This document shows, one piece after another, positions 6,025 through 58,178 of a stretch of DNA of 64,000 bases (position 1 is its first letter; the number at the start of each line of letters is the position of its first letter). The DNA is from Phycisphaerales bacterium (GTDB taxonomy: Bacteria > Planctomycetota > Phycisphaerae > Phycisphaerales > UBA1924). The notes under the pieces are model-generated. The model ran no database searches, was not told the DNA's origin, and saw nothing but the letters and a program-made list of their open reading frames with translations. The stretch spans positions 1 to 64,000 of the forward strand of contig JADLFE010000033.1 of NCBI GenBank assembly GCA_020845755.1. The letters are read 5' to 3'. The position numbers were made by a program, and so were the translations under genes.

Positions 6025-6129
6025 GGGGCCTATCTCCAACAAACGAGTATCCCACGACCATCCAATGTCGCATCTCGGACACACATGTCAAGATTTTCGA
6101 TTTAATTTCGGGCTCGCGGCGGCGGCTTC

Positions 6130-6295
6130 TCAGCACCCCGCCTCGAAGTGCTCGGCGAAGGCGTCGTAGTCCAGCGCGTTCACAAACCCGTTCCCGTCAA
6201 AGTCCGCGCCTCGATCCCCCGTCTCGAACAACTCCGCGAACGAGTCGTAGTCCAATGCGTTCACGAACCCGTTCTGGTCAAAGTCGGCGGGACAC
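6130..6295 (-). repeat. Dockerin-tail DNA repeat, copy B
   Basis: Near-identical to copy A (3802-3967) and copy C (8770-8935), including synonymous positions, which suggests recent copying or gene conversion of the tail. Confidence 0.8.
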
Positions 6296-8769: not shown

Positions 8770-8935
8770 TCAGCACCCCGCCTCGAAGTGCTCGGCGAAC
8801 GCGTCATAGTCCAGCGCGTTCACAAACCCGTTGTGGTCAAAGTCCGCGCCTCGATCCCCCGTCTCGAACAACTCCGCGAACGCGTCGTAGTCCAATGCGT
8901 TCACGAACCCGTTCTGGTCAAAGTCGGCGGGACAC
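8770..8935 (-). repeat. Dockerin-tail DNA repeat, copy C
   Basis: Third near-identical copy of the dockerin-encoding segment. It differs from copy B by about half a dozen bases although the genes upstream are unrelated (protease versus propeller). Confidence 0.8.
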
Positions 8936-10983: not shown

Positions 10984-11248
10984 GTCAAACTCCCATGTCC
11001 ACACCGGCGCAAGCCGGTTCATGTCCGTCCGCGCCGCCCCGGCGCCCGGACCCCCACGCCATCCAAAATACAGGACGACGCCCCCGGCGCATAGGGGCAA
11101 CTTCATGATCGGTGCGACTTTCCCCTCCACCGGGGCTTGGAAGCGCCACCCCGGCCGGGGGAGTCAACGCTCCATGAAATCGCCTCCGCTCACCACACGC
11201 GCCCGTGCCACAGCGCACCCAAACGTCCGCCCCCTACCATCCCGGTCT

Positions 11249-42946: not shown

Positions 42947-44664
42947 CACGCGACCTCCTTCTTGACGGGGTCCTGCGGGCGGATCGGGATGCCCGGATGG
43001 CCCCAACTCATGGACCTGCTATAGAACGTGATCACCACACCGATGCACAGGAACGTGGACGCGATGTACGTCAGCGTGAGGCCCGGATCGTGCATCACGC
43101 TGAAGATCGACACCGTCGTGCCGTTGAAACCGGACTGGTACACCTTCCACGGCCCGTGGGCGAAGGGGTGGTTCATGTAGATATCAAACTTGGTCTCGGG
43201 CTGCCCGGGGAAGATGATGCCGACGTCGGACTGATACTCCATCGCCATCTCGGTGCCGGGGTAGTCGATCTTGTGGAACTTGTCGAGGCGGACGGAGAAG
43301 GGCAGTTGGGCGCGCTTCGGGCCGTAGTAGATGGCCAACTGCTTCCCGCTCTCGCCGGTGACGGGGAGCATGTTCCTCCACGAGATGGTCTTGAGTTCAT
43401 TGGAGTTGCCGACGCGGACGAGGATCGCAGGAGAGTTGTCCTTGGCGACGGGCGCCTCGACCAGGCGCGTGTCGACATGGGCGTTGGACAACTGGCGGTG
43501 GATCGTGACCTCGCGGGTGTCGAATTGCAGCGTCACGGGGTACCGGTTCTCGATGTCGTAGGTGCGTCCCGCGCCGTCGAGCCCGATGTAGCCGATGCGG
43601 GTCTTCTCGACCGTCCCGAAGATGATGAGCGTCTCGCCGGCGTTCACGCCGCCCTTGATAAGTTTGGCGCCGGACTTGGCCTCGCCTTCGAGCGTCCGCC
43701 CCATGATCATGTCGGGGAACTGGGCGAACGCCGTGTGAATCTCGGTCGTGCCCTTCCCGTCGGAGATCTTCACCTGCACGGCGGGATTCTCCGGCGACGT
43801 CGCGGAACCCTCGACGATCGTGTCGCCCGACACCATCGCCCGCGCATACCGCGTCAATTCCACGATCTTCCAGCCCGGAAGCACTTCGTCGCCGACGTTG
43901 CCCAACGCGTGCGTGTGACCGGCGTCGGTGAACACAAAGTCGCCCTTGGCCGAGGTGTCGGGCTTGGGCGGCGTCCAGTCGCTCCCGTTCGGAAGCACCA
44001 GCACCTTCAGGCCCAGCAGCGTCGGCGAGGGGCCGGCCTGATCTTCCTGCCCCACCCACGCCGATTGCGGCCCGGCGACGGGCGAGATGTCCACGGCACG
44101 GAGAGGAACGGGGCTGTCGTTGGCGACGACCTCCTCTTCCTTGGAATTCTGCCAACGCTCCACCACCTCGAACGACACGCCGCCCAGCGTGAGCGATTTG
44201 CGACCCAGCGGCGCGGGGATGGCCCCAAGGCTGTTGAAGTCGCCGCGGTTGGGCTCCATCACCTCGATCTGATGCTCCTGCGTCTCGATGATGCTCCCCT
44301 GCGTGCCCTCGCGGAGCATCAGGTGCCCGTCGACCCGGGCCCACATCGACCAGAAGCCGCCCGCGATCAACGCGACCAGCGAGGCGTGGACCATGACAAA
44401 GCCGATGTGCCTCTTCTTGAGCGGGATGCGCGTGATGACGGCGAAGATCAGGCTGACACAGGTGAGCCCCATCAGCGCCACGAACCACCACGAGCCGTAG
44501 ACCCACTCGCGCGCCACGGTTGCGTTCTGCTTGGAGTCGAGCCACGTGCCGACACCCAGCGCGATGGAAACCAGGAAGAGCACCGGCACCGCCAGTTGGA
44601 TGCTCCCCAGGAACAGAATGACCCGCCCGAAGGGTGTGTAGTGCCAATCAAGAGACTTCTTCAT
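42946..44664 (-). CDS. resB: ResB-family cytochrome c biogenesis protein (System II)
   Basis: The product is 572 residues. GGAG lies 6 nt upstream of the ATG at 44664. It has an N-terminal membrane helix (IQLAVPVLFLVSIALGVGTWLDS), two more at about residues 57-110, a large periplasmic domain, and a C-terminal helix (LTLTYIASTFLCIGVVITFYS) that follows FNGTTVSIFSVMHDPG. This arrangement is that of ResB/CcsB, the partner of CcsA. It should help deliver reduced apocytochrome and heme. Its adjacency to the multiheme cytochromes explains why it is here. Confidence 0.9.
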   Translation of the reverse strand: MKKSLDWHYTPFGRVILFLGSIQLAVPVLFLVSIALGVGTWLDSKQNATVAREWVYGSWWFVALMGLTCVSLIFAVITRIPLKKRHIGFVMVHASLVALIAGGFWSMWARVDGHLMLREGTQGSIIETQEHQIEVMEPNRGDFNSLGAIPAPLGRKSLTLGGVSFEVVERWQNSKEEEVVANDSPVPLRAVDISPVAGPQSAWVGQEDQAGPSPTLLGLKVLVLPNGSDWTPPKPDTSAKGDFVFTDAGHTHALGNVGDEVLPGWKIVELTRYARAMVSGDTIVEGSATSPENPAVQVKISDGKGTTEIHTAFAQFPDMIMGRTLEGEAKSGAKLIKGGVNAGETLIIFGTVEKTRIGYIGLDGAGRTYDIENRYPVTLQFDTREVTIHRQLSNAHVDTRLVEAPVAKDNSPAILVRVGNSNELKTISWRNMLPVTGESGKQLAIYYGPKRAQLPFSVRLDKFHKIDYPGTEMAMEYQSDVGIIFPGQPETKFDIYMNHPFAHGPWKVYQSGFNGTTVSIFSVMHDPGLTLTYIASTFLCIGVVITFYSRSMSWGHPGIPIRPQDPVKKEVA

Positions 44665-44701: not shown

Positions 44702-45736
44702 TTAATTCATACCCGTCGTGTGGACGTCGGCCGGCGAATGAGAGGCGCGAACCTCCCCCGCGTCGACCGAACGCTCCAAGTCCACCATCTTCTGCCCGTC
44801 GAGATAGTCCGTCAGGACCACGCGCCGGATGTGCTTCAGCGACGCCACCGTCTTGCTCATCCTCGATAGAGTCGTTTGGATCTCTCGGCAATACCGCTCG
44901 AGGTTCGAATTGCCCCCCGATTGACGCCCCACCAGCGACAACTGCATCTCGATCGTCGCCATCGCGTTGTTCAGATCGTGATTCAGCGTCACCGCCAACT
45001 GACGCAGTGTCTCGGCCTTGCGCTCCTCGTTGGCCTGCAACTGCTCCGCTAGACGGTTGTACGCAGTCGCCAACTCCCCGAACTCGTCGCCCTGTTCGAC
45101 ATTGACGCGGTGATCGAATCGCTCGGCGGCCAGCTCGCGGCTTCCCTCCACCAACTGCCCGACCGGCTTGAGCACCACCATCGCCGTACGCAGCAGCACG
45201 AACACCGCGACGTTCACCATCACCAGCGCCGCCAGCGTCAGACCCAGCACCAGCCCGCGGAAGTACCGCCCGAACGACGCCTGCTCGCCGGCGACAAACC
45301 CGCGGACCGAGCGCGCCAACTCGCGCATCGCTTGATGCACGTGCGTGCGATGCTCCCGCTGGCTCGCCGCGTCCGAACTTGCGGGCTCCATGAACTCGGG
45401 AAGGAGTTCGACCAACTTCGCGTACGACCTCGCCTGGGGCGAGCCCGCGATCTTGATCGCGTCGTGGGCTCCAATGGCCGACATCGCGACACGCAGCCGC
45501 TCGTCGGGCGCCTGGGCATTGACGGGGCCCGAAGGGGGAAGCCCGTCGCGCGCGTTCTCGATCTCGGCAACACAGTCGTCGGCGGTGTGCACCCCGTCGA
45601 TCAGAACAACCGCGTCCCGATTGATCCGGTCGATATCGGGGATCGCCTGCTGGAGCAGGGAGACCGCCACCGCCGCGCCCATGACGAAGCAGGCGACCAG
45701 GAGACCGATCCGGATGAGTAGTTTCCGACGGAGCAT
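44702..45736 (-). CDS. Sensor-kinase-like membrane protein lacking the ATPase domain
   Basis: The product is 344 residues. It has a membrane helix at residues 8-28, a periplasmic sensor of about 130 residues, a second helix at 161-185, a HAMP linker (186-238) and a dimerisation/phosphotransfer-like helix with His253 in LAVTLNHDLNNAMATI. Normal histidine kinases then have about 150 residues with N, G1, F and G2 ATP boxes; here only about 75 residues remain and no such boxes exist. So it cannot phosphorylate itself by the usual route. It lies 18 nt after the response regulator gene and is likely its partner. Confidence 0.82.
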   Translation of the reverse strand: MLRRKLLIRIGLLVACFVMGAAVAVSLLQQAIPDIDRINRDAVVLIDGVHTADDCVAEIENARDGLPPSGPVNAQAPDERLRVAMSAIGAHDAIKIAGSPQARSYAKLVELLPEFMEPASSDAASQREHRTHVHQAMRELARSVRGFVAGEQASFGRYFRGLVLGLTLAALVMVNVAVFVLLRTAMVVLKPVGQLVEGSRELAAERFDHRVNVEQGDEFGELATAYNRLAEQLQANEERKAETLRQLAVTLNHDLNNAMATIEMQLSLVGRQSGGNSNLERYCREIQTTLSRMSKTVASLKHIRRVVLTDYLDGQKMVDLERSVDAGEVRASHSPADVHTTGMN

Positions 45737-45754: not shown

Positions 45755-47134
45755 CTACGGCGTGTTGTCGCCGCGCTCCTGGTCCTGCAGGTCCTTGGGG
45801 ATCCGCAGTTCCTCCAACTTGCGGTACAGGCTCGACACGCCGATGCCCAGGTGCTGGGCGGTCTCGGCCTTGTCGTAGTTGTGCCGGCGCAGGCTGTAGA
45901 TGATGTGCTGACGCTCGAACTGCATGAGCGCCTGCTTCAGATCCTCGCCCGTGTCCTCGTCGATCGCGACCGACTGGAACGGCAGGTCCGACGCCTCGAC
46001 ATCACGACCTTCCGAGAAGATCACGGCACGCTCGATCACGTTCTCCAGTTCACGCACGTTGCCACGCCACTCGTGATTCAGCAACGCCCGCATCGCGCCG
46101 TTGCTGATCCCCGTCACGTTCTTGTTCATCTTCCGCGTGTACTTGTCGAGGAAGTGCTGGGCCAGGAGCGGGATGTCCTGGCGGCGCTGGCGCAGCGGGG
46201 GGAGCAGCAATCGCACCACGTCGAGGCGGTAGAGCAGGTCCTCGCGGAACTTGCCCTCCTTGCACAGCGTCTGCAGGTTCTGGTTCGACGCCGCGATGAT
46301 GCGCACCTCGACCGGGCGCGGACGCGTGTCGCCCACGGGAACAACCACACGCTCCTCGAGCACACGGAGAAGCGAACTCTGCACCTGGACGGGGAGCGTC
46401 GAGATCTCGTCGAGGAACAGCGTGCCGCCGTTGGCCGCCTCGAAATAGCCGATGCGGTCCTTGACCGCGCCGGTGAATGAGCCCTTGCGGTGCCCGAACA
46501 GTTCGGATTCGATGAGATTCTCGGGGATCGCGCCGCAGTTGACCGCGATGAAGGGCTTGTCGCGCGTGATCCCGTTGTAGTGGATCGCGCGGGCGAACAG
46601 TTCCTTGCCCGTGCCCGACTCGCCCACGATCAGGACGCTGCTGGAAACCGTCGAGAGTTTCTTCACCAGCGCAAACAGACCGGCCATCGCCGGCGACTCG
46701 CCCACCAGGTCGTGGAAGGTCGATTGCGACGCGAGCTGCTCGGTCAGGATGCTCCGGTTCCGACGCATCTCGCCAACCTCGAGCGCCCGCTTCACACGGA
46801 TCAGCACGTCCTCGAACTGCACCGGCTTGAGTAGATAGTCGGCCGCCCCCATCCGCATCGCGCTCACCGCCGACTCCACCGTCCCGAACGCCGTGATCAC
46901 GATCACCGGCGTCTGCGGGATCACCTGCTGAAGATTCTTCAGGAGCGTCAGCCCGTCCATCACCGGCATGCGGATGTCCGTGAGCACAAGATCAAAGGGC
47001 TCGGCGAGCACGGCGTCGTAGCCAGCCTTGCCGTCCCCCGCCTGCACGACCTGATACCCCTCCTCGCCCAGGAGTTGGGCCAGGGACTCACGGAGCAGTT
47101 GCTCGTCTTCGACCAGGAGAATCTTGGTGGCCAT
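45755..47134 (-). CDS. Sigma-54-dependent response regulator (NtrC family)
   Basis: The product is 459 residues. The receiver domain has the phosphoacceptor Asp53 (LTDIRMP) and Lys103 region (LLKP). The AAA+ domain has Walker A GESGTGKE at 171-178, the sigma-54 contact loop GSFTGA at 218-223 (the common form is GAFTGA) and Walker B GGTLFLDE at 236-243. A Fis-type helix-turn-helix fills about residues 405-450 (ETAQHLGIGVSSLYRKLEEL). It should activate -24/-12 promoters, four of which lie in this locus. GGAG precedes the start by 6 nt. It is in one operon with the upstream NTF2-like gene. Confidence 0.95.
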   Translation of the reverse strand: MATKILLVEDEQLLRESLAQLLGEEGYQVVQAGDGKAGYDAVLAEPFDLVLTDIRMPVMDGLTLLKNLQQVIPQTPVIVITAFGTVESAVSAMRMGAADYLLKPVQFEDVLIRVKRALEVGEMRRNRSILTEQLASQSTFHDLVGESPAMAGLFALVKKLSTVSSSVLIVGESGTGKELFARAIHYNGITRDKPFIAVNCGAIPENLIESELFGHRKGSFTGAVKDRIGYFEAANGGTLFLDEISTLPVQVQSSLLRVLEERVVVPVGDTRPRPVEVRIIAASNQNLQTLCKEGKFREDLLYRLDVVRLLLPPLRQRRQDIPLLAQHFLDKYTRKMNKNVTGISNGAMRALLNHEWRGNVRELENVIERAVIFSEGRDVEASDLPFQSVAIDEDTGEDLKQALMQFERQHIIYSLRRHNYDKAETAQHLGIGVSSLYRKLEELRIPKDLQDQERGDNTP

Positions 47135-47155: not shown

Positions 47156-47899
47156 TCACTCCTTCTTGGGCTCGGTCGCGGGCGCGGCCGGCGTTTCGGT
47201 GGGCGCGGCTTCCGGCTTGCCTTCCGTCTGGACGGCGGGCTGGGCGGCGGGCTGGGCGGCGCCGGCGGGCAGGTACTTCGCCGGGATGTCGTTGCCGGGC
47301 GTCTCGAAATCCCAGAAGACGTTGACAATCCACCAGCGGTCCTTGTCCTTCAGCAACTGGATGCTGTTGATGCCGCGGATGTACGGGTCCTTCTCCTCGG
47401 CGCTGTGACGCGACTCGTAGGTGCTCCACACCTGGGCCATGTGCCCGAACGAATCCACCTGGCGATGCACCTCGGAATCAAGGAAGCCGCCCTTCTCGAA
47501 GTACTTCTTGTTCATGTCGACGTACTGCGCGATCGGCACATACATCGCCATCGCACCGCCGCGATCATCGGAGCGGGCGGGAACCATGCGCGCATCGGGC
47601 GTAAAGAGCGACATGTACCGCTCCCAGTCGCGCGCCTCGCCCGGATTACCGGCCGGGATCTTGTAAAACGCCGCCAGGATCGCGTCGATCGACTTCACGT
47701 CCTCCGCTCGCGCCTTGGGCCATTTCACCTGCTCATTGCTCATCCCCGGATGCCCCGACGGCATCGGCTTCTTCGACGGCTGGTCCGTCGAGGGGTGCGC
47801 TGGCTTGTCGTTCGGCGGCTGGACTGGCTTGGAATCCTGCGGGAGCGGCATCGGGCCAGAGAGCAAACAGGCCACGATCGCGGTTACAAGTGCGTTCAT
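47156..47899 (-). CDS. Secreted NTF2/SnoaL-like protein
   Basis: The product is 247 residues. GGAGG lies 8 nt before the ATG at 47899 and a short signal peptide follows (LVTAIVACLLSGPMPLPQ). Residues 60-190 look like the NTF2/SnoaL cone (IDAILAAFYKIPAG, RDWERYMSLFTPDARMVP, WSTYESRHSAEEKDPYIRGINSIQLLKDKDRWWIVNVFWDFE). Pro/Ala-rich stretches flank the domain. It is the first gene of the regulator operon, directly behind a sigma-54 promoter. The function is unknown; it may bind a small molecule in the periplasm. Confidence 0.78.
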   Translation of the reverse strand: MNALVTAIVACLLSGPMPLPQDSKPVQPPNDKPAHPSTDQPSKKPMPSGHPGMSNEQVKWPKARAEDVKSIDAILAAFYKIPAGNPGEARDWERYMSLFTPDARMVPARSDDRGGAMAMYVPIAQYVDMNKKYFEKGGFLDSEVHRQVDSFGHMAQVWSTYESRHSAEEKDPYIRGINSIQLLKDKDRWWIVNVFWDFETPGNDIPAKYLPAGAAQPAAQPAVQTEGKPEAAPTETPAAPATEPKKE

Positions 47900-47947
47900 T
47901 TGTGGGTCCTCCAGAAGCGAGAATGGATCAATCCATATCGGGCTGTT

Positions 47948-47962
47948 GCAAACGCCGTGCCC
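47948..47962 (-). promoter_or_regulatory. Sigma-54 promoter P3 (regulator/maturation operon)
   Basis: On the minus strand the sequence reads GGGCACGgcgtTTGCA: GG and GC are separated by exactly 10 nt, and all but one of the consensus bases match. The predicted start of transcription is near 47936, 37 nt before the NTF2-like start codon. Confidence 0.8.
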
Positions 47963-48084: not shown

Positions 48085-49758
48085 TTACGGCCCTTCAGGG
48101 TACTTTTTCGGCGAGTGGTCCACGCCGTGGCACGACAGGAAGCACTCGCCGGTGTGCCCGCCCGTGTCACGGTATTCGAGCTTGCCGGTCACCCGGTCGG
48201 GAAGAACGATCGCGGTCGCGAAATTGACGAGGTGGGCGTTGTTGGCGGCACGCCCTTGGCCGGCGGCGATGCCGTGCGAATCATGGCACGCAATGCAGGG
48301 CGTCTGGTGGTCGACGATGTGCTTCTTGTGCCCGGGGAAGGAACGATCGTCGAGGATGCTCCCGCGGTCGTGGCAGGTATAGCACAACGCATAGCCCGCG
48401 GCACTCTCGCTGGTGTAATCGTTGGTCTCGTAGGCGGCCCGGAGCAGACCGGGGTTGTTCGAGCCGTGGACGCCGACGGGCAAACCAGCATCCGACCCGT
48501 GGCAATCGCTGCAACTCATGATGCTCGAGGTAGACCAGCCGGGCCGCAGGCTCGGCACGTCGGTCCCGCGCCCGGAGATACCCACCGGGTGCATCGACAC
48601 CGACGAGGGGCTGAACTGCAGGCGGACGTTGGTATTGGAGACCTGGCGCGCGATCCGCGGCGTGACGACGTTCCCGTCGCCGTGACACTTGTAGCAGACT
48701 TCCTGCTCGGCGCTGATGACGCCGATGGGCGAGCCCGAGGCGTTGACGCCGGAGATTCGACCGAGACGCCCAAGGTCGACGTTGCGCGGGCCCGGACCCT
48801 GGTTGTGCGCACCAGTGCCGCGCCGCATGGTGTGCGGATCGTGGCAACTGGTGCAGTTCGTGGTCGACTCATACGCGCCGTCCGGATCGACCGGGCTCAT
48901 CGTGTCGTGGGCGCTGACCTTGGTCAGGTCGGAGGCGATGTCGGCGGCGTCGTGCGTGGAGCCGTTGTGGCAACTGGTGCAGGTCTTGGTGGTGTTCTGG
49001 TTGTTGAGGAGGTAGGGCCCGCTGGGCGCGGTGTGGTTCTGGTGGCAGTCAATGCACTGCGCGTGACCCTGGATGTCGGTCTGGCTGATGGTGTGGCACG
49101 ACGTGCACAACTCGGAGTTGGTGTTGCGCATCACCAGGAACTTGCCGAAGGCGTTGTTGTGCGCGTCGTGGCAGGTGGTGCACTGCAGTTCGCGGTTCAA
49201 ATCGAGTTTGATCTGCGGCGGAAGGGCGAATGGATCGCGCAGTCGCCCGTCCTTGCCGGCCAGTGACGAGTCGTACGTGAACGAGATCGGATGATCGTCG
49301 CGCAGGTCGGTGCCGAGATTGGCGCGCCCATGCGGCATGGTGGTCACCCCGCCGCGCATCGGGATCGGCGCCCCGATCCCCGCCACGGAGCCCCCGCGAC
49401 GCAGCACGCTCCCCAGCGCGATCGTCCCGTCGTGACAGGACAGACAGAGTTTGGAATCGCCCGTGGGCTGCCCGGGGTTGGCGTCGAGCGAGCGGCTGGC
49501 ATACACCAGATACGCCTGGGGCGACATGGCGCGATTCCACAGGGGCGCGATGGGCGAGGCGCTGTGAGTGGTGTGGCAGAAGATGCACACCTGGTCCTCG
49601 CCGGAGGCGCGGACGTTGGCGGCACTCCCCGCGGAGAGATCGTGCGGGCTGCTGACCATCGACACGATCTGGGCCCGCGCGCCCGCCGCGCACAACGCCG
49701 CACAGATCATCGCCACCCACGCCGAACGACCAATGGCGTTCATGGGATTCACGTTCAT
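48085..49758 (-). CDS. Secreted 12-heme c-type cytochrome
   Basis: The product is 557 residues with a signal peptide (MICAALCAAGARAQ). I count eleven CxxCH motifs and one CxxxCH (CFLSCH, near the C-terminus), so 12 hemes. The first four (CIFCH, CLSCH, CTTCH, CTSCH) with SPHDLS, CHDGTIALGS and LGTDLRDDHPISFTYD form the same module as the tetraheme protein at 55521-56141. Eight more hemes follow. The start overlaps the stop of the upstream NHL gene (ATGA). It is the last gene of the operon starting at 54996. Cell-surface or periplasmic electron transfer is expected. Confidence 0.92.
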   Translation of the reverse strand: MNVNPMNAIGRSAWVAMICAALCAAGARAQIVSMVSSPHDLSAGSAANVRASGEDQVCIFCHTTHSASPIAPLWNRAMSPQAYLVYASRSLDANPGQPTGDSKLCLSCHDGTIALGSVLRRGGSVAGIGAPIPMRGGVTTMPHGRANLGTDLRDDHPISFTYDSSLAGKDGRLRDPFALPPQIKLDLNRELQCTTCHDAHNNAFGKFLVMRNTNSELCTSCHTISQTDIQGHAQCIDCHQNHTAPSGPYLLNNQNTTKTCTSCHNGSTHDAADIASDLTKVSAHDTMSPVDPDGAYESTTNCTSCHDPHTMRRGTGAHNQGPGPRNVDLGRLGRISGVNASGSPIGVISAEQEVCYKCHGDGNVVTPRIARQVSNTNVRLQFSPSSVSMHPVGISGRGTDVPSLRPGWSTSSIMSCSDCHGSDAGLPVGVHGSNNPGLLRAAYETNDYTSESAAGYALCYTCHDRGSILDDRSFPGHKKHIVDHQTPCIACHDSHGIAAGQGRAANNAHLVNFATAIVLPDRVTGKLEYRDTGGHTGECFLSCHGVDHSPKKYPEGP

Positions 49759-50873
49759 GGCTTTCTACCCTCACTCCCGCCACGGTCCGCGCCGACAGAC
49801 ACACCGTCGCCCAGATACTGAAAGACCTGGACGCGCTGGTTATATGAATCGGCAATCCAGACTCGCCCCTTTGGATCGATGTGAATCCCGGCGGGAAGCC
49901 AGAATTCACCAGGCCCTCGTCCCTCACGCCCGACCGATAGCAGCAACTGCCCCTCGGAAGTGAAGATCTCGACGGCCTCGAAATTGGCGTCCACCACGTA
50001 GACGTGCCCGTCTGGATCGAGTGCAACGCCCTTGGGCTGGGAGAAATAACCCGGCAGGTCGCCTCGACGCCCGATCTGGCGGATCGGTTTCAGGTCGGGC
50101 CCGAAGACCTGCAAGCGAAAGTTCAGGGTGTCGCTGACGTATAGATCACCCTCGCCGTCGATCGCGAGGTTGGTCGGATAGTTGAACGTGCCCAACTCCG
50201 TCCCACGCTCGCCCAGACGCGTGATCTCCGCCCCGGCGCGATCCAGCACGACGATCTGGTGCACGCCGACATCGGCGACGAAGATCCGCCCGTCGGCGCC
50301 GACCGCCAGCCCCGCCGGACGCTTCAGAACGCCCTCGCCGATCTTGGCGGTCATCGTGCCGCCCGCATCAAACGCGAAGATGCAGCCCGCCACCGAGTCC
50401 GAAACCAACACGCGCGACCCCGCGGCGTCCCACGCAACCGCAACCGGCATCGAGAACTTCTCCGCCGGGTCCCAGTGCGCGTAGCGCCGCGTGTCGAGAT
50501 CGAAGACGTGCAGCGTCTGCCCGTTGTTGTCGGCGACAAAGACCCTGGAGCCCCCGTCGGTGCACACGCCCATCGGGCTGGTCATGCCCTTGGCCGCCTC
50601 TTCGCCGAAGAGCCCGGCGCCGATCGACTCCAGGAAGCCGCGCGCCGGCTTCAGGTCCTTATCGGTGGCGATCTCGCCGAGATACCGCAGCCGCGGCGGA
50701 TCGGGCGGCGTGGGCCACACCGGCGACGCGTCGGTCCCCTCGAGGATCGTGCCCGCGGGCGTGGTGCACCCGCCCAGCACAACCGCCGGGACACCGATCA
50801 GCAGCGCCATCGCCCGCGCCCCGGCGGAGAGCGAGCGTCGTGGCATGAACCGGGGTGGGCGTGGCTGGTCCAT
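49755..50873 (-). CDS. NHL-repeat propeller lipoprotein (second copy in operon)
   Basis: The product is 372 residues. AGGAG lies 6 nt before the ATG at 50873. The lipobox is LGGC in VPAVVLGGCTTP. Six NHL blades are visible (for example DGGSRVFVADNNGQTLHVFDL, DGEGDLYVSDTLNFRLQVF, DPKGRVWIADSYNQRVQVF). Just after the Cys is SPVWPTPPDPPRLRYLGEI, which matches WPLAPAEPRIQYIGSY in the NHL protein at 53686-54996. Such paired lipoproteins accompany multiheme cytochromes in metal-reducing bacteria. It may hold or orient a cytochrome on the outer membrane. Confidence 0.9.
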   Translation of the reverse strand: MDQPRPPRFMPRRSLSAGARAMALLIGVPAVVLGGCTTPAGTILEGTDASPVWPTPPDPPRLRYLGEIATDKDLKPARGFLESIGAGLFGEEAAKGMTSPMGVCTDGGSRVFVADNNGQTLHVFDLDTRRYAHWDPAEKFSMPVAVAWDAAGSRVLVSDSVAGCIFAFDAGGTMTAKIGEGVLKRPAGLAVGADGRIFVADVGVHQIVVLDRAGAEITRLGERGTELGTFNYPTNLAIDGEGDLYVSDTLNFRLQVFGPDLKPIRQIGRRGDLPGYFSQPKGVALDPDGHVYVVDANFEAVEIFTSEGQLLLSVGREGRGPGEFWLPAGIHIDPKGRVWIADSYNQRVQVFQYLGDGVSVGADRGGSEGRKP

Positions 50874-50880
50874 GGTGCTC

Positions 50881-52902
50881 CTAGAACGCGCGGCGCAGGC
50901 CGACCTCGATGAACTGGGACTCGTTCTTGGTGGCGGGCCCGTCGAGATTGGAGTTGCTCACCGTGGCATAGATGGAAGTCTGACGCTTCCGGAACGTGAG
51001 GGTCAAGTGCTCTTCCAGCCCGTCGGTCGTCCCGCTCTGGCTGCTGTCCTCATGACGGTACGTCGCGCCCAAGGTGAGGCTGAGCGCCTGATCCAGGCGG
51101 GTCGTCCATTCGAGCCTGGCGCGGTCGAGCGCCACATCGTCGTTCTGCTGCGTGAACTCGATCATCTCATGCGACAACTCCGCCGTCACCGCCGAACCCG
51201 TGCCCGTCTGGAGCGAGTAGTTCAGCAGGAACCTCGCCACGTTGTAGGGCGAGATGGAACTGTCGTGCATGTTGTACTCGGCCCGGGCGAGCCATTCGGC
51301 GCGCCGGTACTCGACGCCGACGAGCAGGTCCTTGGTGTCGTCGGGCGTGAAGAGCGAGGGATCGCTGGCGCTGATGCTCTGGTCCGTGGTGCGGTAGGTG
51401 GTGTACCCCGACAGGCCCCTGAACGTGCCCTCGGTGAGCGTGTAGCGCAGGGCCCAGTTCGTGCTGAGCGTGTCGACGTCGTAGCCGGACTCGGGCCCGA
51501 CGTCGTAGGTCACGCGGACCTGCTGCCCGTTGATCAGCGCGCCGGTCAGGACGCCGCGGATCTCGGTGTGATCCGGGTAGTACAGCACCGTGTAGTCGAT
51601 GCCCTCCTGGTAGGGCGTGGAGTTGGAGGGGGGGCGCACCTCGACCGAGCCGGGCACGATGTTGCGCCGGTTCAGGATGATGGGGAACCCATCGTTGTAG
51701 ACGTGGGATTCGTCGAGAACACGGAACGTCGATCCGCGATCGCTGTTGGTCTGCGCGTCATAGCCCAGGCCGACCGACGCGTCGAGCGTCCCCAGCGGGA
51801 CCCGCTTGGTGTAGTCCAGTTCGCCGCTGAGGAACAGGTCGTCGCTGGTGAAGCCCTCGTCGTCGGTGATGCGCTGGGCCCCGAGGGTGCCGAGGCTGGT
51901 CAGGCTGTCGAAGAGTTTGTGCTTGGCCGAGTTCTGGAAGCGGACAAGGTCGCGCGAACTCCCGCGGATGTCGGCCTGGTCATACACCAGGTCGTGCCTG
52001 GTCTCGAAGTTGTCGGTGTGCCGCAGCGTCAGGAACTCGTCCCAGCGCATGCGGTTGATGTCCTGGCTCCCCGACTGCTGGTAGACACGGGCCTGCGAGC
52101 GCAGTTCGTGCGGGCGACCCTCCTCGCCGAACACCCAGGTGTGCGTCAGCATCGCGTCGTGACGCGTGTACGAGTCCGAGTACCCCCCGCCCTGACTCTC
52201 GTCGATCATGTCGAGCGTGTAGTTCAGTTCGAGTTTCTGCCGCTCCGCCACGCTGAAGATGTCGTTGGTGGTGAAGGTGTCCTGTCTGGTGTTGGTGTTG
52301 ATGTCACCGAAGTCGTCGGTGATCTCCTGCTCCCGGTGGAAATACTCGGCGCTGAGCGCCATGAAGTCGTCGTGATAACTGCTGGAGATCCCGGTCTCGG
52401 TCGTGATCTGGTCGATCGTGCCCGCGAACGGGCGACGCTGGCGGTCCTCGCTCCGACGCGAATAGATGCTGGTCGGCAGTTCGCTGGCCCCGAAGACCAG
52501 CGCGTTGATGTCCCACAACCCCACGAATTCGTTCGTGTTCCCGCTGTCGCCGTCGATGCTGCTCCGACGATCGATGTCCTCGTTGCCGATCTGGAAGATG
52601 CCGACCACGTCGATCAGGTTCTTGTGCCCGATCGTCACCTCGGTGTCGAGGTCCAGCAACTCGCGATACCGATCCTCCGTCACCGTCTGGTCAGACTGGC
52701 CCGTCACCTGCGACTTGTCCCGCTGGTGCTGCCAACGCAGGTCGAGCGACGGCACAAACCTCACCAACTCGACCCCAGACCACGTCGCCTTCCGCTCTCC
52801 CACGATCACCGGCCCGCCGTCGTCCGCCTGCTGCGCCGCCGCCCGCCCCGCCAGGGCGAGCAACGCCGCGATCAAGATGGATGTGGGGGCTCGCCGCGGC
52901 AT
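50881..52902 (-). CDS. Outer-membrane beta-barrel candidate of the cytochrome operon
   Basis: The product is 673 residues. A signal peptide (LIAALLALAGRAAAQ) is followed by a chain of alternating amphipathic strands with aromatic girdles and ends in Arg-Arg-Ala-Phe, the C-terminal Phe expected for Bam-inserted barrels. No other domain is seen. Its place between two multiheme cytochromes and two NHL lipoproteins is that of the barrel in a porin-cytochrome complex (MtrB or OmbB type), though I see no direct sequence signature of those families. The stop lies 7 nt before the next start. Confidence 0.75.
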   Translation of the reverse strand: MPRRAPTSILIAALLALAGRAAAQQADDGGPVIVGERKATWSGVELVRFVPSLDLRWQHQRDKSQVTGQSDQTVTEDRYRELLDLDTEVTIGHKNLIDVVGIFQIGNEDIDRRSSIDGDSGNTNEFVGLWDINALVFGASELPTSIYSRRSEDRQRRPFAGTIDQITTETGISSSYHDDFMALSAEYFHREQEITDDFGDINTNTRQDTFTTNDIFSVAERQKLELNYTLDMIDESQGGGYSDSYTRHDAMLTHTWVFGEEGRPHELRSQARVYQQSGSQDINRMRWDEFLTLRHTDNFETRHDLVYDQADIRGSSRDLVRFQNSAKHKLFDSLTSLGTLGAQRITDDEGFTSDDLFLSGELDYTKRVPLGTLDASVGLGYDAQTNSDRGSTFRVLDESHVYNDGFPIILNRRNIVPGSVEVRPPSNSTPYQEGIDYTVLYYPDHTEIRGVLTGALINGQQVRVTYDVGPESGYDVDTLSTNWALRYTLTEGTFRGLSGYTTYRTTDQSISASDPSLFTPDDTKDLLVGVEYRRAEWLARAEYNMHDSSISPYNVARFLLNYSLQTGTGSAVTAELSHEMIEFTQQNDDVALDRARLEWTTRLDQALSLTLGATYRHEDSSQSGTTDGLEEHLTLTFRKRQTSIYATVSNSNLDGPATKNESQFIEVGLRRAF

Positions 52903-52905
52903 GGG

Positions 52906-53667
52906 TTACGAGGGGTTAGGTGTCTCCGCAGGGATGACCTCGTCGTCCTCGGGACCCACGGGCGGACCGACACGCTCCTCCGCCGGCGGTACGCTCGGGC
53001 TCCGACCGCTCTCGGGGTTGAAGATCGGCTGCTGCTTCTCGACCTCCTTCAACTCGCTCTCGGGCGGCGGTGATTGCGCCGACGCGCCAGGACGAAGCAT
53101 GATCGCCGAATCACCGCCGTGCCCGAAGTGGCACGACAGGCAACTCGACTTCTCGTCCGCGTGCGCCGGCACCGTCTCCCCCGTCAGCATCGCCGACGAG
53201 TGGCACTGCATGCACAACTTCCGGTCAGGACCACGCAGAAGCCAACGACGCACCGATTCATGCGGCGTGTGACACCACAGGCACGCCCCTCCTGCCACCG
53301 CTCCGTGCGTCCAGGCGTGCTGTCCCATCAACTTGTCATGACAATTCAAGCACGCACGCGGATCATTCCGACTCGGTCGATACTGCGTCTTGTGACACTC
53401 CTCGCACTTCTCATCCGCGAACGGCTTGTGAACCACGACCCGCGCCGCAATCGTCATGTCCGAGATGTCCGTGCCCGCAACCTTCGCGCTCGGATCAGGC
53501 ACCCCGTCAAAGAACAAACTCAGCGTCGCGTAGTTCTCTTTCGTGACCGTGCACCCGCACCACACCCCACCCACCACACCCCCGGCCAACGCCGCGCCCA
53601 GCGCCCAGCGCGCGGCGGCCCCACCGAAGCGGGGTCGCCGAAACACTTGGCGTCGGGTGCGTCTCAT
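52906..53667 (-). CDS. Membrane- or lipid-anchored pentaheme c-type cytochrome
   Basis: The product is 253 residues. The N-terminal signal (AAARWALGAALAGGVVGGVWCGC) could be a lipobox ending at Cys or a membrane anchor. Five CxxCH sites follow: CEECH, CLNCH, CLWCH, CMQCH, CLSCH. After the last heme comes a Pro/Glu-rich tail of about 75 residues without Cys. Its small size and heme packing fit the periplasmic cytochrome that sits inside a porin in known conduits. It is four nt from the barrel gene, which it precedes. Confidence 0.88.
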   Translation of the reverse strand: MRRTRRQVFRRPRFGGAAARWALGAALAGGVVGGVWCGCTVTKENYATLSLFFDGVPDPSAKVAGTDISDMTIAARVVVHKPFADEKCEECHKTQYRPSRNDPRACLNCHDKLMGQHAWTHGAVAGGACLWCHTPHESVRRWLLRGPDRKLCMQCHSSAMLTGETVPAHADEKSSCLSCHFGHGGDSAIMLRPGASAQSPPPESELKEVEKQQPIFNPESGRSPSVPPAEERVGPPVGPEDDEVIPAETPNPS

Positions 53668-53685
53668 CAGGCCGACAACTCCGTG

Positions 53686-54996
53686 TTATGGCTTGGGATT
53701 GGCGGGCGGCGTCTGCGGCTGGGGCTCCGCGGGCTGAGCGCTATCGCCCAAGGGCTCGTCCTGCACCGCGCCCTCGGGCGTCGGCTCGACGCCGCCGATG
53801 TTCTGGAACTTGAGCGTCTCGGCGCTGGGCGTGTCCTGCACCCCCACCGAGACCTTCTCCGAAACCGCCGCGACCTGCTCGATCGTGTACCCGGAACGCA
53901 GACCGCCCATCGCGTACACCGACACCCTCCCGTCGCCGAACTGGTTGGCCACCAGCACCAGCCGCTTGGCCTCAAAGCCCGGGTAGATCTTGTCCTTGAA
54001 ATAGTCCAGTCCCTGGTCGGTCACCGCGATCCCGACCGGGAGGCTCATCGCGCCGGGGTGCTTCCCAGGTGACCCGAAGAACATGAGCAGTTTGAACTCG
54101 TCGTTGAACATCTGCACGTTCTGGAACTGGGCGTCAACGACATAGATGATGCCGTCGGAGTCCACCGCCACATGCTTGGGCCGCGCGAACGAACCCGCAT
54201 GGTCGCCAAGACGCCCGAAGCCCGACAGATACTTCCCGTCCTTGTCGAACTTCTGCACCATGCAACGCATCATGTCCGTGACATAGACGTTCCCGCTCTT
54301 GTCCACTGTCACGCCGATCGGAAGGCGGAACTGCCCGGGCTCATCCCCCACGCTCCCGATCACCCCCAACTCCTTGCCCGACTTGCGGTCCAGGATCAGG
54401 ATCTGCTGGCGGGTGATGTCCGCGATGTACAGCCGCTCGCCGAACGTCGCCATCGACGCCGGCTTGAACTTCTCGATCTTGATGGCGCGGCTGAATCGCT
54501 CGCTCTTGTCGAAGATCATGATCGCGCCGTACACACCGTCCGCGACATAGATCTCCCCGTCGTCCCCGATCGTGATCGCGACCGGCCGCTCCAGTTTGTT
54601 CACGCCCGTCGTGCCCATCAGCCGCGTCTGCTTCCTGGCCAGATCCATCACCACGACCGACTTGCCCCGGATGTCGCAGATGTAGATCTTCCCGTCGTGC
54701 ATTATCAGGCCGTACGGCTTGTTCACATACGCGACCTGCTCCGCGTCCCTGCCGAAGACCGCCTTCTCAAGGCCCGACGCCTCCGTCTTCGACACGTCCT
54801 CGCTCGAGTTGTACGAGCCGATGTACTGAATCCGGGGCTCCGCCGGCGCCAACGGCCAGAACGCGTACTTGCCAGCCGTCCCCACGTCCTTCTTGGTCTC
54901 GGTTGGCGTCGAACCGCACCCCGAAACACCGATCAGGGCCACCAACCCCAGCAGCCCGGCCGCCAGCGCCCCCCGAATCGCAAACTTGGTACTCAT
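53686..54996 (-). CDS. NHL-repeat propeller lipoprotein (first gene of operon)
   Basis: The product is 436 residues from the ATG at 54996, with GGGAGG 5 nt upstream. The lipobox is VSGC (LVALIGVSGCGS). NHL blades include DIRGKSVVVMDLARKQ, DDGEIYVADGVYGAIMIFD, DKSGNVYVTDMMRCMVQKFD and DSDGIIYVVDAQFQNVQMF. A Pro/Gln/Glu-rich tail of 60 residues ends the chain. It shares a WPxxPxxPRxxY segment after the lipid Cys with the NHL protein at 49755-50873. It is the first gene behind promoter P2. Confidence 0.9.
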   Translation of the reverse strand: MSTKFAIRGALAAGLLGLVALIGVSGCGSTPTETKKDVGTAGKYAFWPLAPAEPRIQYIGSYNSSEDVSKTEASGLEKAVFGRDAEQVAYVNKPYGLIMHDGKIYICDIRGKSVVVMDLARKQTRLMGTTGVNKLERPVAITIGDDGEIYVADGVYGAIMIFDKSERFSRAIKIEKFKPASMATFGERLYIADITRQQILILDRKSGKELGVIGSVGDEPGQFRLPIGVTVDKSGNVYVTDMMRCMVQKFDKDGKYLSGFGRLGDHAGSFARPKHVAVDSDGIIYVVDAQFQNVQMFNDEFKLLMFFGSPGKHPGAMSLPVGIAVTDQGLDYFKDKIYPGFEAKRLVLVANQFGDGRVSVYAMGGLRSGYTIEQVAAVSEKVSVGVQDTPSAETLKFQNIGGVEPTPEGAVQDEPLGDSAQPAEPQPQTPPANPKP

Positions 54997-55029
54997 GGAT
55001 CCTCCCGGTTGGTCACGTCTGAGAATCGT

Positions 55030-55045
55030 GCAAACCTGGTGCCAG
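55030..55045 (-). promoter_or_regulatory. Sigma-54 promoter P2 (NHL/pentaheme/barrel/NHL/12-heme operon)
   Basis: On the minus strand the sequence reads CTGGCACcaggtTTGC followed by A; GG and GC are 10 nt apart and the consensus bases match. The predicted transcript start is near 55018, 22 nt before the start codon. Confidence 0.85.
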
Positions 55046-55400
55046 GGTTGAGCCTCTCTGGCCAAGGTACAGGTTGTAGCCCTTCAGGTCGTCATTGTCA
55101 CCGCCGCCCTCGGGAATGTGCACGGCTCCATCAGGCCTACACGCCCCGCCCGCCTTCTCTCCGATGCCCGATGCCTTCTATCAGGAGCCCGACCGTGAGG
55201 GATGGCGTTCCTGGCAGTGCCTGGATGCATGCGCGGATTTCCAGCCTCGAAGCCGACCCCTTTCGGGGTCGTTGACCCTACGCCGTCGCCTTCCGGGGTT
55301 CGCTCGCGCCTGGCTCCACCCCTGGCCGCGAACGAACAGCCCTCCGGGCTGAAAGACGTGCGTCCCGGCGAGCCATCGTGGTATTTCCCTGTTTTCCCTG

Positions 55401-55448
55401 TCTCGCTGTCTCGCTGTTTCGCTGTCTCGCTGTCTCGCTGTCTCGCTG
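55401..55448. repeat. 8-bp tandem repeat (TCTCGCTG) x 6
   Basis: Six head-to-tail units, one with a C-to-T change. Similar text in the other orientation (CAGCGAGGCAGCGAGACAGG) lies at about 34522-34541 after lpxD. Confidence 0.9.
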
Positions 55449-55449
55449 C

Positions 55450-55485
55450 AAAAAAGAACTCCGAGCGCCTTGCGACGCTCGGAGT
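55450..55485 (-). terminator. Rho-independent terminator of the tetraheme gene
   Basis: A 10-bp stem (ACTCCGAGCG with its complement, 8-nt loop) followed on the minus strand by a T-run, 36 nt after the tetraheme stop. It separates this gene from the NHL operon. Confidence 0.88.
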
Positions 55486-55520
55486 GAGTCAATCAATCGA
55501 AATGACTCCGGGGCTTGATC

Positions 55521-56141
55521 TTACTTGATGTGGCAAGTCAAGCAGATGTGGCTGGCCTGGTTGCTGAACCGCATCATGTGGCCGTAGTTGCCGGCGTTGT
55601 GGGCGGTGTGGCAGGTGCTGCAGCCGACGACATACTTCTCAACGCTGTCGGTCGGGTCGATCCACGCACGCAGACGCAGGGAGCCCCACGGGCCCGGGAC
55701 CTGGTGGGCGGCGTTCTGGGGGTTGAAGCGGGTGCTGGTCGTGGTCGGATAGATCGCGTCGGCGCCGATCGGGTGATCGTCGCGCAGGTCGGTGCCGATC
55801 TTGGCCCAAGCCGCGATCGTGTTGGAACCGGTCGTCCCGCCGAAGCTGTCGAGGGCGACGGTGCCGTCGTGGCAACCCATGCACATCAGGGAGCGCTCAT
55901 CGAGCAGTTCGGGGCCGCCCACTTCACCCTCGAACATGGTGAAGGTCGCGCTGGAGAGCTCGTGGTTCCACATGAAGCCCGCGTCCACATTGCCGAAGTG
56001 CGGCGTATGGCAGGGCTTGCAGATCTCGCCACCGCTCCAGGCGTAGCTGCTGAAATCGTGCTTGCTGCCCGTGATCTGGGCCTGAGCGGCCGTGGCCAAG
56101 CACACCATCGCGAGAGTCCCGACAAACAGTTGACGTTTCAT
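55521..56141 (-). CDS. Tetraheme c-type cytochrome, OmcE-like
   Basis: The product is 206 residues. GGAGG lies 5 nt before the ATG at 56141. A signal peptide ends near residue 22 (TAAQAQ). Hemes are at CKPCH 41-45, CMGCH 87-91, CSTCH 174-178 and CLTCH 200-204. Text around them (GSKHDFSSY, CHTPHFGN, WNHE, CHDGTVALDSF, IGTDLRDDHPIG, HICLTCHIK at the end) is the pattern I know from OmcE-type cytochromes, which polymerise into extracellular filaments in Geobacter. Length and heme count also fit. It is alone between its own sigma-54 promoter and terminator, which suits a highly expressed subunit. Filament formation is inference. Confidence 0.92.
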   Translation of the reverse strand: MKRQLFVGTLAMVCLATAAQAQITGSKHDFSSYAWSGGEICKPCHTPHFGNVDAGFMWNHELSSATFTMFEGEVGGPELLDERSLMCMGCHDGTVALDSFGGTTGSNTIAAWAKIGTDLRDDHPIGADAIYPTTTSTRFNPQNAAHQVPGPWGSLRLRAWIDPTDSVEKYVVGCSTCHTAHNAGNYGHMMRFSNQASHICLTCHIK

Positions 56142-56228
56142 GATGTCCTCCACACTTTGTTCTGGCGGCCGGGACCTCAGGTCCGCCCAGGAGTCTGCCG
56201 GCCGATACTGTATTCAAGATGTCACAGT

Positions 56229-56245
56229 GGCAATTTGCGTGCCAG
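56229..56245 (-). promoter_or_regulatory. Sigma-54 promoter P1 (tetraheme cytochrome), nearly palindromic
   Basis: On the minus strand the sequence reads CTGGCACGcaaaTTGC, a full match to the -24/-12 consensus. The predicted start is near 56218, 77 nt before the tetraheme start codon. The same bases on the plus strand read TGGCAatttgcGTGC, a weaker -24/-12 match facing the hexaheme gene. Confidence 0.87.
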
Positions 56246-56438
56246 CGGTCTTCAGAATTGAAAACCGCATTTGGACGTTACGGCGAGGGGTTTGTCGTCT
56301 GTGCAATTCCCGCCGTTGGGAGGATTCATACCACCTTTCCTATTCCCGTGAGAACCCGCCCATCGCTTTTTGACTCCACCACGTTCAAGCAGAATGTGCG
56401 CGTTGCCGATCCCTGTGACAGGCAGGGAGCACACAACG

Positions 56439-57242
56439 ATGCGAACGAATCGCGTACAGCGGCGGGCGGTCCCTTGGTCGTTTCTTTGGGGGCTGGCCGG
56501 GATTGTGGGAGTGATCGTGGCCGGGTCGATCGGACCCGGGCCCACGCGGGCCAAGGCCGACGGCGAGGCCTGGACTGTCGCCGCGGCGCCGTCCGGGAAT
56601 CAGACGCCCGGGGTGACCTCCCGCAGTTGCGTTTCGTGCCATCACTTTGAACAGGTTCTGACCCACCCAACCAACGTGCGGGCGTCGATGCCGGTGCCCG
56701 CAAGCCTTCCGTTGAACGCCGGGATGGTGACGTGCCTCACATGCCACGACGCCGGGCCGAACCACGCCACCGGCCACCAGAAGGTTGGTGTTCGGAGTGA
56801 TTCCTCCGGCACGAGCCTCTGCATGCAGTGTCACTCGAATGTCAAGAACTCGACCAAGGCGGTTCACGCCCTCCGTGGTGGAAAGGCCCACCTCAGCGCC
56901 AGGTCCCAGTATGACGCCCACGCCAGCAAGGTCGCCGACGGCGAAAGCGTCAGTTGCATGGGTTGCCACGACGGCACCTCGGCCAGCGATGCCGGATCCC
57001 ATTCCATCAAGAGGTCACAGGACGACATGCTCCCGGACCATCCGATCGGAATTCCCATGCGTGAGACCGGCCGCAAACGCGATGGCGACTTCCGTCTGAA
57101 TCGGACCATCGACAAGCGAATCCGCCTTTACGACGGAAATCTCGGGTGCGGCTCGTGCCACAGCATCTACTCTCGTGAACCCAAAGAACTCGTCATGAAC
57201 AATCGCGGGAGCAAACTCTGCCTCGGATGTCACGCTCAATAG
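56439..57242 (+). CDS. Secreted hexaheme c-type cytochrome
   Basis: The product is 267 residues from the ATG at 56439, with GGGAG about 10 nt upstream. A signal/anchor helix (GLAGIVGVIVAGSI) is followed by CVSCH, CLTCH, CMQCH, CMGCH, CGSCH and CLGCH. The last three hemes with CHDGTSASD, DHPIGIPM and SKLCLGCHAQ at the very end match hemes two to four of the tetraheme module, including the spacing around DHP. It is divergent from the tetraheme gene and shares a 297-nt control region with it. Confidence 0.9.
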   Translation: MRTNRVQRRAVPWSFLWGLAGIVGVIVAGSIGPGPTRAKADGEAWTVAAAPSGNQTPGVTSRSCVSCHHFEQVLTHPTNVRASMPVPASLPLNAGMVTCLTCHDAGPNHATGHQKVGVRSDSSGTSLCMQCHSNVKNSTKAVHALRGGKAHLSARSQYDAHASKVADGESVSCMGCHDGTSASDAGSHSIKRSQDDMLPDHPIGIPMRETGRKRDGDFRLNRTIDKRIRLYDGNLGCGSCHSIYSREPKELVMNNRGSKLCLGCHAQ

Positions 57243-57389: not shown

Positions 57390-57404
57390 TGGCACCAACA
57401 TTGC
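57390..57404 (+). promoter_or_regulatory. Sigma-54 promoter P4 (ccmC/ccmD-like genes)
   Basis: TGGCACcaacaTTGC, followed by A; GG and GC 10 nt apart with all consensus bases matched. The predicted start is near 57416, 70 nt before the ccmC start codon. Confidence 0.85.
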
Positions 57405-57485
57405 AGTGAATGGGACGTTGCGGGACCCGTGTTCCGCGGCTGCGTTCCCTTCCTTACGCGAATTCCTGCCTCCTCAAGGTGCTGC

Positions 57486-58178
57486 ATGGACCGCCAGCGC
57501 AGATGGATCGCGGGTTCCTATTGGACGTTGACGATCGTCCTTCTCGCGATCGGGGCGTTTTTGGTGGTCCGGGCTCCCATTGATGAGACAATGGGTCCCA
57601 TACAGAAACTGATCTACCTCCACCTGCCGGTGGCGGTCAACACATTCTTGTCATCGCTCGTGGTGTGCATCGCCAGCGTGGGCTATCTGGCGGTTCGTCG
57701 CCAGAGGTGGGATGACCTGGCCCAGGCGGCGGCTGCGGTCACGGTGCTCAACGGCACGGTCCTGCTGCTCACTGGTATGTGCTGGGGCAAGGTCGCGTGG
57801 AACCTGTGGTGGACCTGGAGCCCGCGCCTCACCTTCAGTTTGATCCTCTGGGTGTTGTACCTGGCCTACCTGGCGGTGCGCCGGCGAATCGAGTCGCCCG
57901 AACGCCGCGCCCAGGTCAGCGCTGTCTACGGCGTCGTCGCGTTTCTCGACGTGCCCCTTCTGTATCTGGCCGTGAAACTCCTGCCCGACGTCCACCCGAC
58001 CCAGTCCGGGCTCATCCCCGCGATGTACCCGGCTCTTTGGACGTGGTTTGTGGCGATCACCATGTTGACGGGCGGCCTGATCGCCGCTCGGTTCTCCCTC
58101 GCTCGTCTCCCAACCTTCCGGTGGGAGAAGGAGCCGAGCACTCCGACACTCCCTCCCGCCGCCGGCCTGACCGGATGA
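57486..58178 (+). CDS. ccmC: CcmC-like heme-handling membrane protein
   Basis: The product is 230 residues with six membrane helices. AAGGTG precedes the ATG at 57486. Two His that match the CcmC heme ligands are seen: YLHLPVAVN (about residue 45) and LLPDVHPTQSG (about residue 165). The tryptophan-rich loop reads WNLWWTWSPRLTFSLILW, where the usual CcmC has WxWDxRLT, so the Asp is Ser-Pro. No other Ccm System I genes (A, B, E, F, H) are nearby. Together with System II at 41-45 kb it may serve a special cytochrome of this locus. A CcsA-like role is the alternative. Confidence 0.88.
   Translation: MDRQRRWIAGSYWTLTIVLLAIGAFLVVRAPIDETMGPIQKLIYLHLPVAVNTFLSSLVVCIASVGYLAVRRQRWDDLAQAAAAVTVLNGTVLLLTGMCWGKVAWNLWWTWSPRLTFSLILWVLYLAYLAVRRRIESPERRAQVSAVYGVVAFLDVPLLYLAVKLLPDVHPTQSGLIPAMYPALWTWFVAITMLTGGLIAARFSLARLPTFRWEKEPSTPTLPPAAGLTG

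Follow-up and report, generated by a model that had tools for sequence, protein, structure and literature searches.

A conserved cassette of barrel, multiheme cytochrome and NHL lipoprotein genes as a probable outer-membrane electron conduit in a Phycisphaerales bacterium

Introduction

Do the clustered multiheme cytochrome, barrel and NHL lipoprotein genes of a planctomycete form an electron conduit to the cell surface? The question is raised by positions 48085–57242 of one 64,000-nucleotide stretch of DNA (the window) from a Phycisphaerales bacterium (UBA1924; assembly GCA_020845755.1, contig JADLFE010000033.1, positions 1–64,000 of the forward strand), where genes A to F lie on the minus strand and gene G is divergent. 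An earlier annotation of the same DNA (the original prediction) proposed a conduit analogous to those of Geobacter. Our analysis supports such a conduit in this Phycisphaerae-type bacterium, outside the MtrB/PioB family: the cassette F-E-D-C-B-A is probably an outer-membrane electron conduit joined to OmcE-family surface cytochromes. We favor this reading because of the model of barrel C, the MtrB and MtrA matches, the OmcE homology, the conserved gene order, the co-occurrence of the genes and the sigma-54 sites.

Planctomycetota are common in sediments, wastewater and biofilms; to our knowledge, their electron exchange is almost unstudied outside the anammox group. As far as we know, it is an open question in Geobacter how the cell and its cytochrome filaments are connected. 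Because it co-encodes a barrel and filament-type cytochrome, with one filament-domain fusion, the cassette offers a concrete way to ask how a nanowire joins the cell.

Barrel and MtrA-like cytochrome

The six genes of the cassette are closely packed, and the barrel gene C is adjacent to the pentaheme gene D, as had been predicted (Table 1). The 673-residue C protein ends in Phe and has no match to any Pfam family. The original prediction had staked its reading on this protein folding as a barrel, and a barrel of about 28 strands was obtained. The AlphaFold2 model, for which eight orthologues were taken from named contigs of Phycisphaerae and Planctomycetota, has a predicted local distance difference test (pLDDT) score of 81.7 and a predicted template modeling (pTM) score of 0.69; it contains 28 strands of at least 12 residues and one 87-residue insert after strand 17. 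The strand residues alternate in character, with z of 7.4–9.7 versus shuffles (family averages over 21 homologues in 9-residue windows, with strand limits taken from the predicted model); over whole strands, the alternation of the window protein by itself is not significant. In Foldseek, the best PDB match of the model is MtrB (6r2q_B, expectation value (E) 2.9e-9, TM scores 0.45 and 0.47).

Since the strands are counted from a periplasmic N-terminus, the insert would face the outside. It is well conserved (window 51478–51744, residues 387–475), carries the motif YxxGxDYxVxxFxDxxEIxR...DGQxVLIDY and is possibly a docking site. A Pfam search of the insert gave no match. The NCBIfam phage tail-tube model matches 12 of the 21 C homologues (best E 2e-8), covering residues 394–481 of the window protein; we take this to reflect a shared small beta fold rather than phage origin.

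The family profile of D (17 orthologues) matches the MtrA chain 6r2q_A with an E of 2.6e-27; this chain is MtrA, though its database label differs, and the next structure has an E of 3e-8. The fold match of C to MtrB and the sequence match of D to MtrA are independent and lead to one complex, 6R2Q, which makes them the strongest sign of a conduit. D contains five hemes and a lipobox-like Cys; it is the sole redox lipoprotein candidate of the cassette, a point missing from the lipoprotein list of the original prediction. At the position of D, two relatives (loci L032 and L058) carry decaheme D-like proteins, and such variation in heme number is expected for a wire of variable length.

OmcE-like cytochromes and NHL lipoproteins

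The strict CXXCH counts of A, D, F and G are 11, 5, 4 and 6, respectively, whereas same-composition shuffled proteins average 0.03–0.05 motifs, with a maximum of 3. Secreted cytochromes with 12, 5, 4 and 6 hemes had been proposed; the numbers hold for D, F and G, and A has 11 CXXCH motifs and one CX3CH site, CFLSCH. All 12 heme sites of A are invariant across 19 orthologues. As these include both Cys and the His of CFLSCH, 12 hemes is a fair count for A.

Both A and F have plain signal peptides, as read from their sequences. F is homologous to filament subunits over its full length (9yuq, E 1.7e-13; OmcE 7tfs, E 2.4e-11), and its profile matches the two with E of 7e-39 and 6e-38. Residues 18–222 of A match OmcE 7tfs as well (single sequence E 3e-29, profile E 5e-46). 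In the alignments of F and the A N-terminal domain with OmcE, the four CXXCH His and the four distal His are kept (HD[LF], CHTPH/CHTTH, DHP, CHxxH). One heme ligand of OmcE is supplied by the adjoining subunit (PMC9473688); with all eight ligand His kept in F and A, the inter-subunit His should be among them. Judged from its sequence, F probably polymerizes like OmcE. With two homologues, the OmcE link is stronger than first proposed.

Past the OmcE-like domain, A matches the Pfam MtrC/MtrF domain II/IV above cut-off, though the match is partial; the rest of A gives weak profile matches to 6i5b and MtrA. Different from MtrC, a large outer lipoprotein decaheme, A has 12 hemes, a plain signal peptide and an OmcE-like N-terminus. 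The proposal that A is the outer partner fits its OmcE-like domain and the MtrC/MtrF match; beyond that, such a role is conjectural. An AlphaFold2 model of A from nine sequences had a pLDDT of 31 and was not used.

The two NHL lipoproteins of the original prediction were borne out: B and E both match Pfam NHL, and a lipobox-like Cys is found in E, B and D in nearly all orthologues. The 459-residue frame assigned to E stands as an NHL lipoprotein gene; its start probably does not, since a sigma-54 promoter sits inside this longer frame, and ATG 54996 is most likely the true start.

Conservation of the cassette

We scanned class (n = 198), phylum (n = 392) and family (n = 61) genome sets, mostly metagenome-assembled. 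The gene-order comparison suggested for Phycisphaerae gave a positive result, in that the F-E-D-barrel-B-A order recurs across the class at 20–35% barrel identity. The complete order F-E-D-C-B-A is present in eight named loci. In 20 further loci, several from the same genomes as the named ones, C, B, A and E are found in 20/20, and D and F in 18/20. Barrel C occurs in 45 of the 198 class genomes, and the barrel profile matches 22 of the 392 phylum genomes. Within the family, the barrel and A co-occur in the same 11 of 61 genomes, most of which have another match, about the size of F, several kilobases away from A. This patchy distribution points to repeated loss or transfer. Plasmid collections contain no relative of C or A, and plasmid cargo was rejected as an explanation.

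Two variants were observed beside this pattern. At L059:8425-10461 and L060:2542-4506, an E-like NHL protein and an eight-heme cytochrome share one open frame, which would link NHL propellers to cytochromes. In family f18 (the source genomes of L013–L020), many genomes have two barrel genes at separate sites, which suggests paralogous conduits.

Sigma-54 sites

Because an NtrC-type activator gene neighbors the conduit, we searched for the sigma-54 pattern TGGCACN5TTGCW. Two exact sites occur in the window versus 0.06 expected; one precedes E-D-C-B-A and the other precedes the CcmC-like gene. Four sites with one mismatch were found versus 1.6 expected, a marginal number that was reached in 7 of 100 shuffles, and sites with two mismatches show no excess over chance. 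Our argument relies on the exact sites and on position. One-mismatch sites lie 5' of F and of the regulator genes; similar sites exist 5' of F in several relatives and 5' of the regulator-linked gene in L033 and L034. The whole genome has seven exact sites, and the third multiheme one precedes the CbcL-like operon described below. With locus limits of our own choosing, three of seven sites at multiheme loci corresponds to a binomial P of ~1.5e-5. RpoN is encoded in the genome, and the NtrC-type activator and sensor genes are located beside the conduit.

Candidate electron supply genes

The genome contains further multiheme loci at C7, C58, C46 and C37. C7 encodes two proteins that combine ten CXXCH hemes with a membrane region for which the match is to formate dehydrogenase gamma or cytochrome b561. 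CbcL is built from a multiheme part and a cytochrome b-type membrane part, and we presume on this ground that the two proteins are CbcL-like. Their operon (L090 = C7:88000-107000; 4752-12652) has an exact sigma-54 site on its 5' side and also encodes two 15-heme cytochromes (13 CXXCH and 2 CX3-4CH). The core cassette has no separate periplasmic cytochrome gene; the 15-heme proteins are candidates encoded elsewhere in the genome, and 15-heme genes adjoin the conduit in L033, L034, L036, L038 and L046. Of the 61 family genomes, 6 encode the CbcL-like protein; all 6 are within the 11 with the barrel, and the 50 others have none (Fisher P 8.3e-6, relatedness uncorrected).

Proposed mechanism and alternatives

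In the mechanism that we propose, electrons of the quinone pool would reach the conduit via the CbcL-like proteins and the 15-heme periplasmic cytochromes. From homology, adjacency and barrel size, we infer that D lies inside C; placed in or under the barrel, it would conduct electrons through the outer membrane in the manner of MtrA within MtrB. The electrons may then pass to A on the outer face and along the F tetraheme subunits, while the NHL lipoproteins E and B may keep the cytochromes at the membrane or assemble them there. Both the conduit and the supply genes would belong to a single sigma-54 regulon, together with the NtrC-type activator encoded nearby. Of the two directions of flow, the outward one, to minerals or partner cells, is the more likely. 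More tentatively, A may be a built-in junction, whose OmcE-like domain caps or nucleates the F filament and whose eight-heme part docks on D-C; we regard this as possible rather than probable. If it is true, a nanowire and the outer-membrane feed-through to which it is connected are encoded in a single cassette.

Several points weigh against the conduit reading. The fold scores of C for MtrB are barely above those for LptD and TonB receptors; C is therefore a large barrel of MtrB/LptD size, and kinship with MtrB is not proven. The profile comparison with MtrA and MtrB that had been called for gave a divided answer: D matches MtrA best, but the MtrB/PioB models (PF11854, TIGR03509) match neither C nor anything else in its genome, and only 1 of the 21 C homologues weakly (E 0.0087 and 0.056). 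The barrel profile found nothing among PDB sequences, so the link of C to MtrB is one of fold. D is lipoprotein-like and MtrA is not. CXXCH motifs inflate similarity scores among multiheme proteins, the Fisher and binomial P values ignore relatedness and use locus limits that we chose, and all the evidence is sequence inference, from genomes mostly assembled from metagenomes.

The same proteins could also run inward, with electrons from Fe(II), Mn(II), steel or partner cells feeding nitrate or oxygen respiration. In Fe(II) oxidizers, modules of the MtrAB type (Mto/Pio) work in the inward direction (PMC8805035), the relative OFTM399 (L033) comes from an iron- and manganese-oxidizing tunnel biofilm (PMC10732223), and heme-copper oxidases have at least two strong matches in the genome itself. 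This relative and these oxidases make inward flow a genuine alternative; we judge it unlikely, given that CbcL-like proteins co-occur with the cassette. In Geobacter, CbcL-like proteins are quinol oxidases for outward flow. It is also conceivable, albeit quite unlikely, that C mainly exports A and F; the NHL lipoproteins would then serve in secretion or maturation, and no electrons would pass inside C. In Geobacter, a block of eight genes next to OmcS has been connected with the maturation and secretion of nanowires (PMC12977616), the fold of C is also near LptD and ushers, and 2 of the 20 further loci have no nearby D gene; however, an MtrA-like D is present in the other 18, and decaheme D-like forms occupy the same position in L032 and L058.

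In an explanation that we consider very improbable, the cytochromes act as soluble enzymes of the periplasm, for instance in nitrogen-oxide chemistry, and the barrel is a porin that has nothing to do with them. Octaheme nitrite-reductase-like proteins are known in Phycisphaerae (PMC11266412), and a HAO-like octaheme protein is encoded at C58. Nevertheless, none of A, D, F and G is above the cut-off of nitrite-reductase or HAO-type catalytic families, the protein that A and F do match is a structural one, a filament subunit, to which F aligns along its entire length, and the barrel is locked to the cytochromes across the class. The periplasmic nitrogen enzyme reading was rejected for lack of a catalytic family match.

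Comparison with known systems

Like MtrCAB of Shewanella (6R2Q), the cassette has a large barrel adjoining an MtrA-like multiheme cytochrome, and its putative outer partner matches the Pfam MtrC/MtrF domain II/IV. Different from MtrCAB, its MtrA-like protein is a lipoprotein-like pentaheme instead of a soluble decaheme (decaheme in some relatives only), its barrel of ~28 strands with a surface insert falls outside the MtrB/PioB models, its outer cytochrome is OmcE-like instead of a lipoprotein decaheme, and it adds two NHL lipoproteins. Canonical MtrCAB membership was rejected because the MtrB/PioB models fail on the barrel. Compared to the OmcE filament of Geobacter sulfurreducens (7TFS) and 9YUQ, F is a full-length homologue, as is the N-terminal domain of A, with four hemes and the distal His kept; the cassette differs in that a barrel and an MtrA-like cytochrome are encoded along with these putative filament proteins and that, in A, the OmcE fold is joined to a region with eight hemes.

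A porin-cytochrome conduit is given a three-part definition in PMC6148476, and its first part, an integral outer-membrane barrel encoded with cytochromes, is found in the cassette. The other parts are a periplasmic multiheme cytochrome, for which the candidates are the 15-heme proteins encoded elsewhere, and an outer redox lipoprotein, for which the candidate is D, on whichever side of the membrane it lies. As far as the available parts of the sources describe them, the Ext, OmcBC and OetABI conduits of Geobacter and Desulfobacterota likewise combine a barrel with multiheme cytochromes, often beside filament cytochromes (PMC6148476, PMC10553843); OetABI sits beside the filament cytochromes OmcS/OmcX (PMC10553843), and ExtC and ExtF are small pentaheme lipoproteins, comparable to the lipoprotein-like D (PMC6148476, PMC10553843). 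In this comparison by description only, the same parts do not describe NHL lipoproteins or an OmcE-fused 12-heme protein. The nearest gene content, compared from papers only, is that of the D. ferrophilus islands DFE_0448-0451 and DFE_0461-0465 (PMC8322314, PMC9769857), where a multiheme lipoprotein, an NrfB-like pentaheme protein, beta-propeller/NHL proteins and large secreted multiheme cytochromes are clustered; different from the cassette, the Desulfovibrio ferrophilus genome has no apparent porin-cytochrome conduit (PMC9769857).

The original prediction knew of no described example in this group, which needs qualification. For a genome of Phycisphaeraceae UBA5793, FeGenie hits to DFE_0448/0449/0451/0461-0463 were reported (PMC13055281), and four Planctomycetota genomes were reported to contain iron-reduction genes (PMC10732223); among our loci, L035 from UBA5793 carries the full cassette. 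Planctomycetes go unmentioned in the MtrCAB survey PMC8805035, and our literature search, limited to open-licence text, found no paper linking OmcE to Planctomycetota. Thus possible iron-reduction genes have already been flagged in related planctomycetes, and the cassette itself has, as far as we found, not been described previously.

If the conduit reading holds, OmcE-type cytochromes, a transmembrane conduit and a likely inner-membrane supply are placed in one planctomycete sigma-54 regulon, and wire-based respiration outside the cell may extend well into Planctomycetota, where it is hardly described. Single cytochrome models are known to misannotate; the linked cassette would be a better genomic marker.

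Gene coordinates and further observations

The 6-heme gene G and a CcmC-like gene lie on the opposite strand beside the cassette (Table 1).

Table 1. Positions of the cassette genes, sigma-54 sites and neighboring genes in the window
Feature	Position	Strand	Description	Basis or remark
A	48085..49758	-	557-residue secreted 12-heme cytochrome	OmcE-like residues 18-222 (4 hemes), then 8-heme region (7 CXXCH + CX3CH)
B	49755..50873	-	372-residue NHL propeller lipoprotein	4-base overlap with A start; Pfam NHL, lipobox-like Cys
C	50881..52902	-	673-residue predicted outer-membrane beta-barrel, ~28 strands	insert residues 387-473 between strands 17/18; predicted model
D	52906..53667	-	253-residue pentaheme lipoprotein-like cytochrome, MtrA/NrfB-like	profile match, lipobox-like Cys
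E	53686..54996	-	NHL propeller lipoprotein	start moved from 55065 to ATG 54996; Pfam NHL, lipobox-like Cys
Exact sigma-54 (-24/-12) promoter	55029..55044	-	5' of E-D-C-B-A	pattern search
F	55521..56153	-	210-residue secreted tetraheme OmcE homologue, candidate filament subunit	start possibly ATG 56141
Sigma-54-like site, 1 mismatch	56229..56244	-	5' of F	similar sites 5' of F in several relatives
G	56370..57242	+	290-residue secreted 6-heme cytochrome, divergent	beside cassette in some relatives only
Exact sigma-54 promoter	57390..57405	+	5' of CcmC-like gene	pattern search
CcmC/CcsB-type protein	57429..58178	+	cytochrome c maturation protein	profile matches
Sigma-54-like site, 1 mismatch	47947..47962	-	5' of 247-residue protein gene and regulator genes	similar site in L033, L034
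247-residue protein	47156..47899	-	secreted protein	weak SnoaL-like match; adjoins regulator in L033, L034 too
NtrC-family response regulator	45755..47134	-	sigma-54 interaction domain	
HAMP/HisKA sensor protein	44702..45736	-		
ResB	42946..44664	-	cytochrome c maturation	Pfam

Elsewhere in the genome, the octaheme protein at C58 (L091:11374-13089) has a Pfam multi-haem/HAO-like match and lies near 15-heme and 4-heme genes; by sequence, it may be the octaheme nitrite reductase that Phycisphaerae are reported to have. At C37, a sensor kinase with CXXCH in its sensor part is encoded within a few kilobases of an HmcA-like cytochrome with 12 hemes (L092:2303-3952 and 7237-8304) and is a possible heme-based sensor. 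At C46 (L093:6150-7645), an NHL gene directly adjoins a 5-heme cytochrome gene, forming an independent NHL-cytochrome pair. Far from the cassette, positions 1652–3607 of the window hold a minus-strand open frame with two CXXCH motifs.

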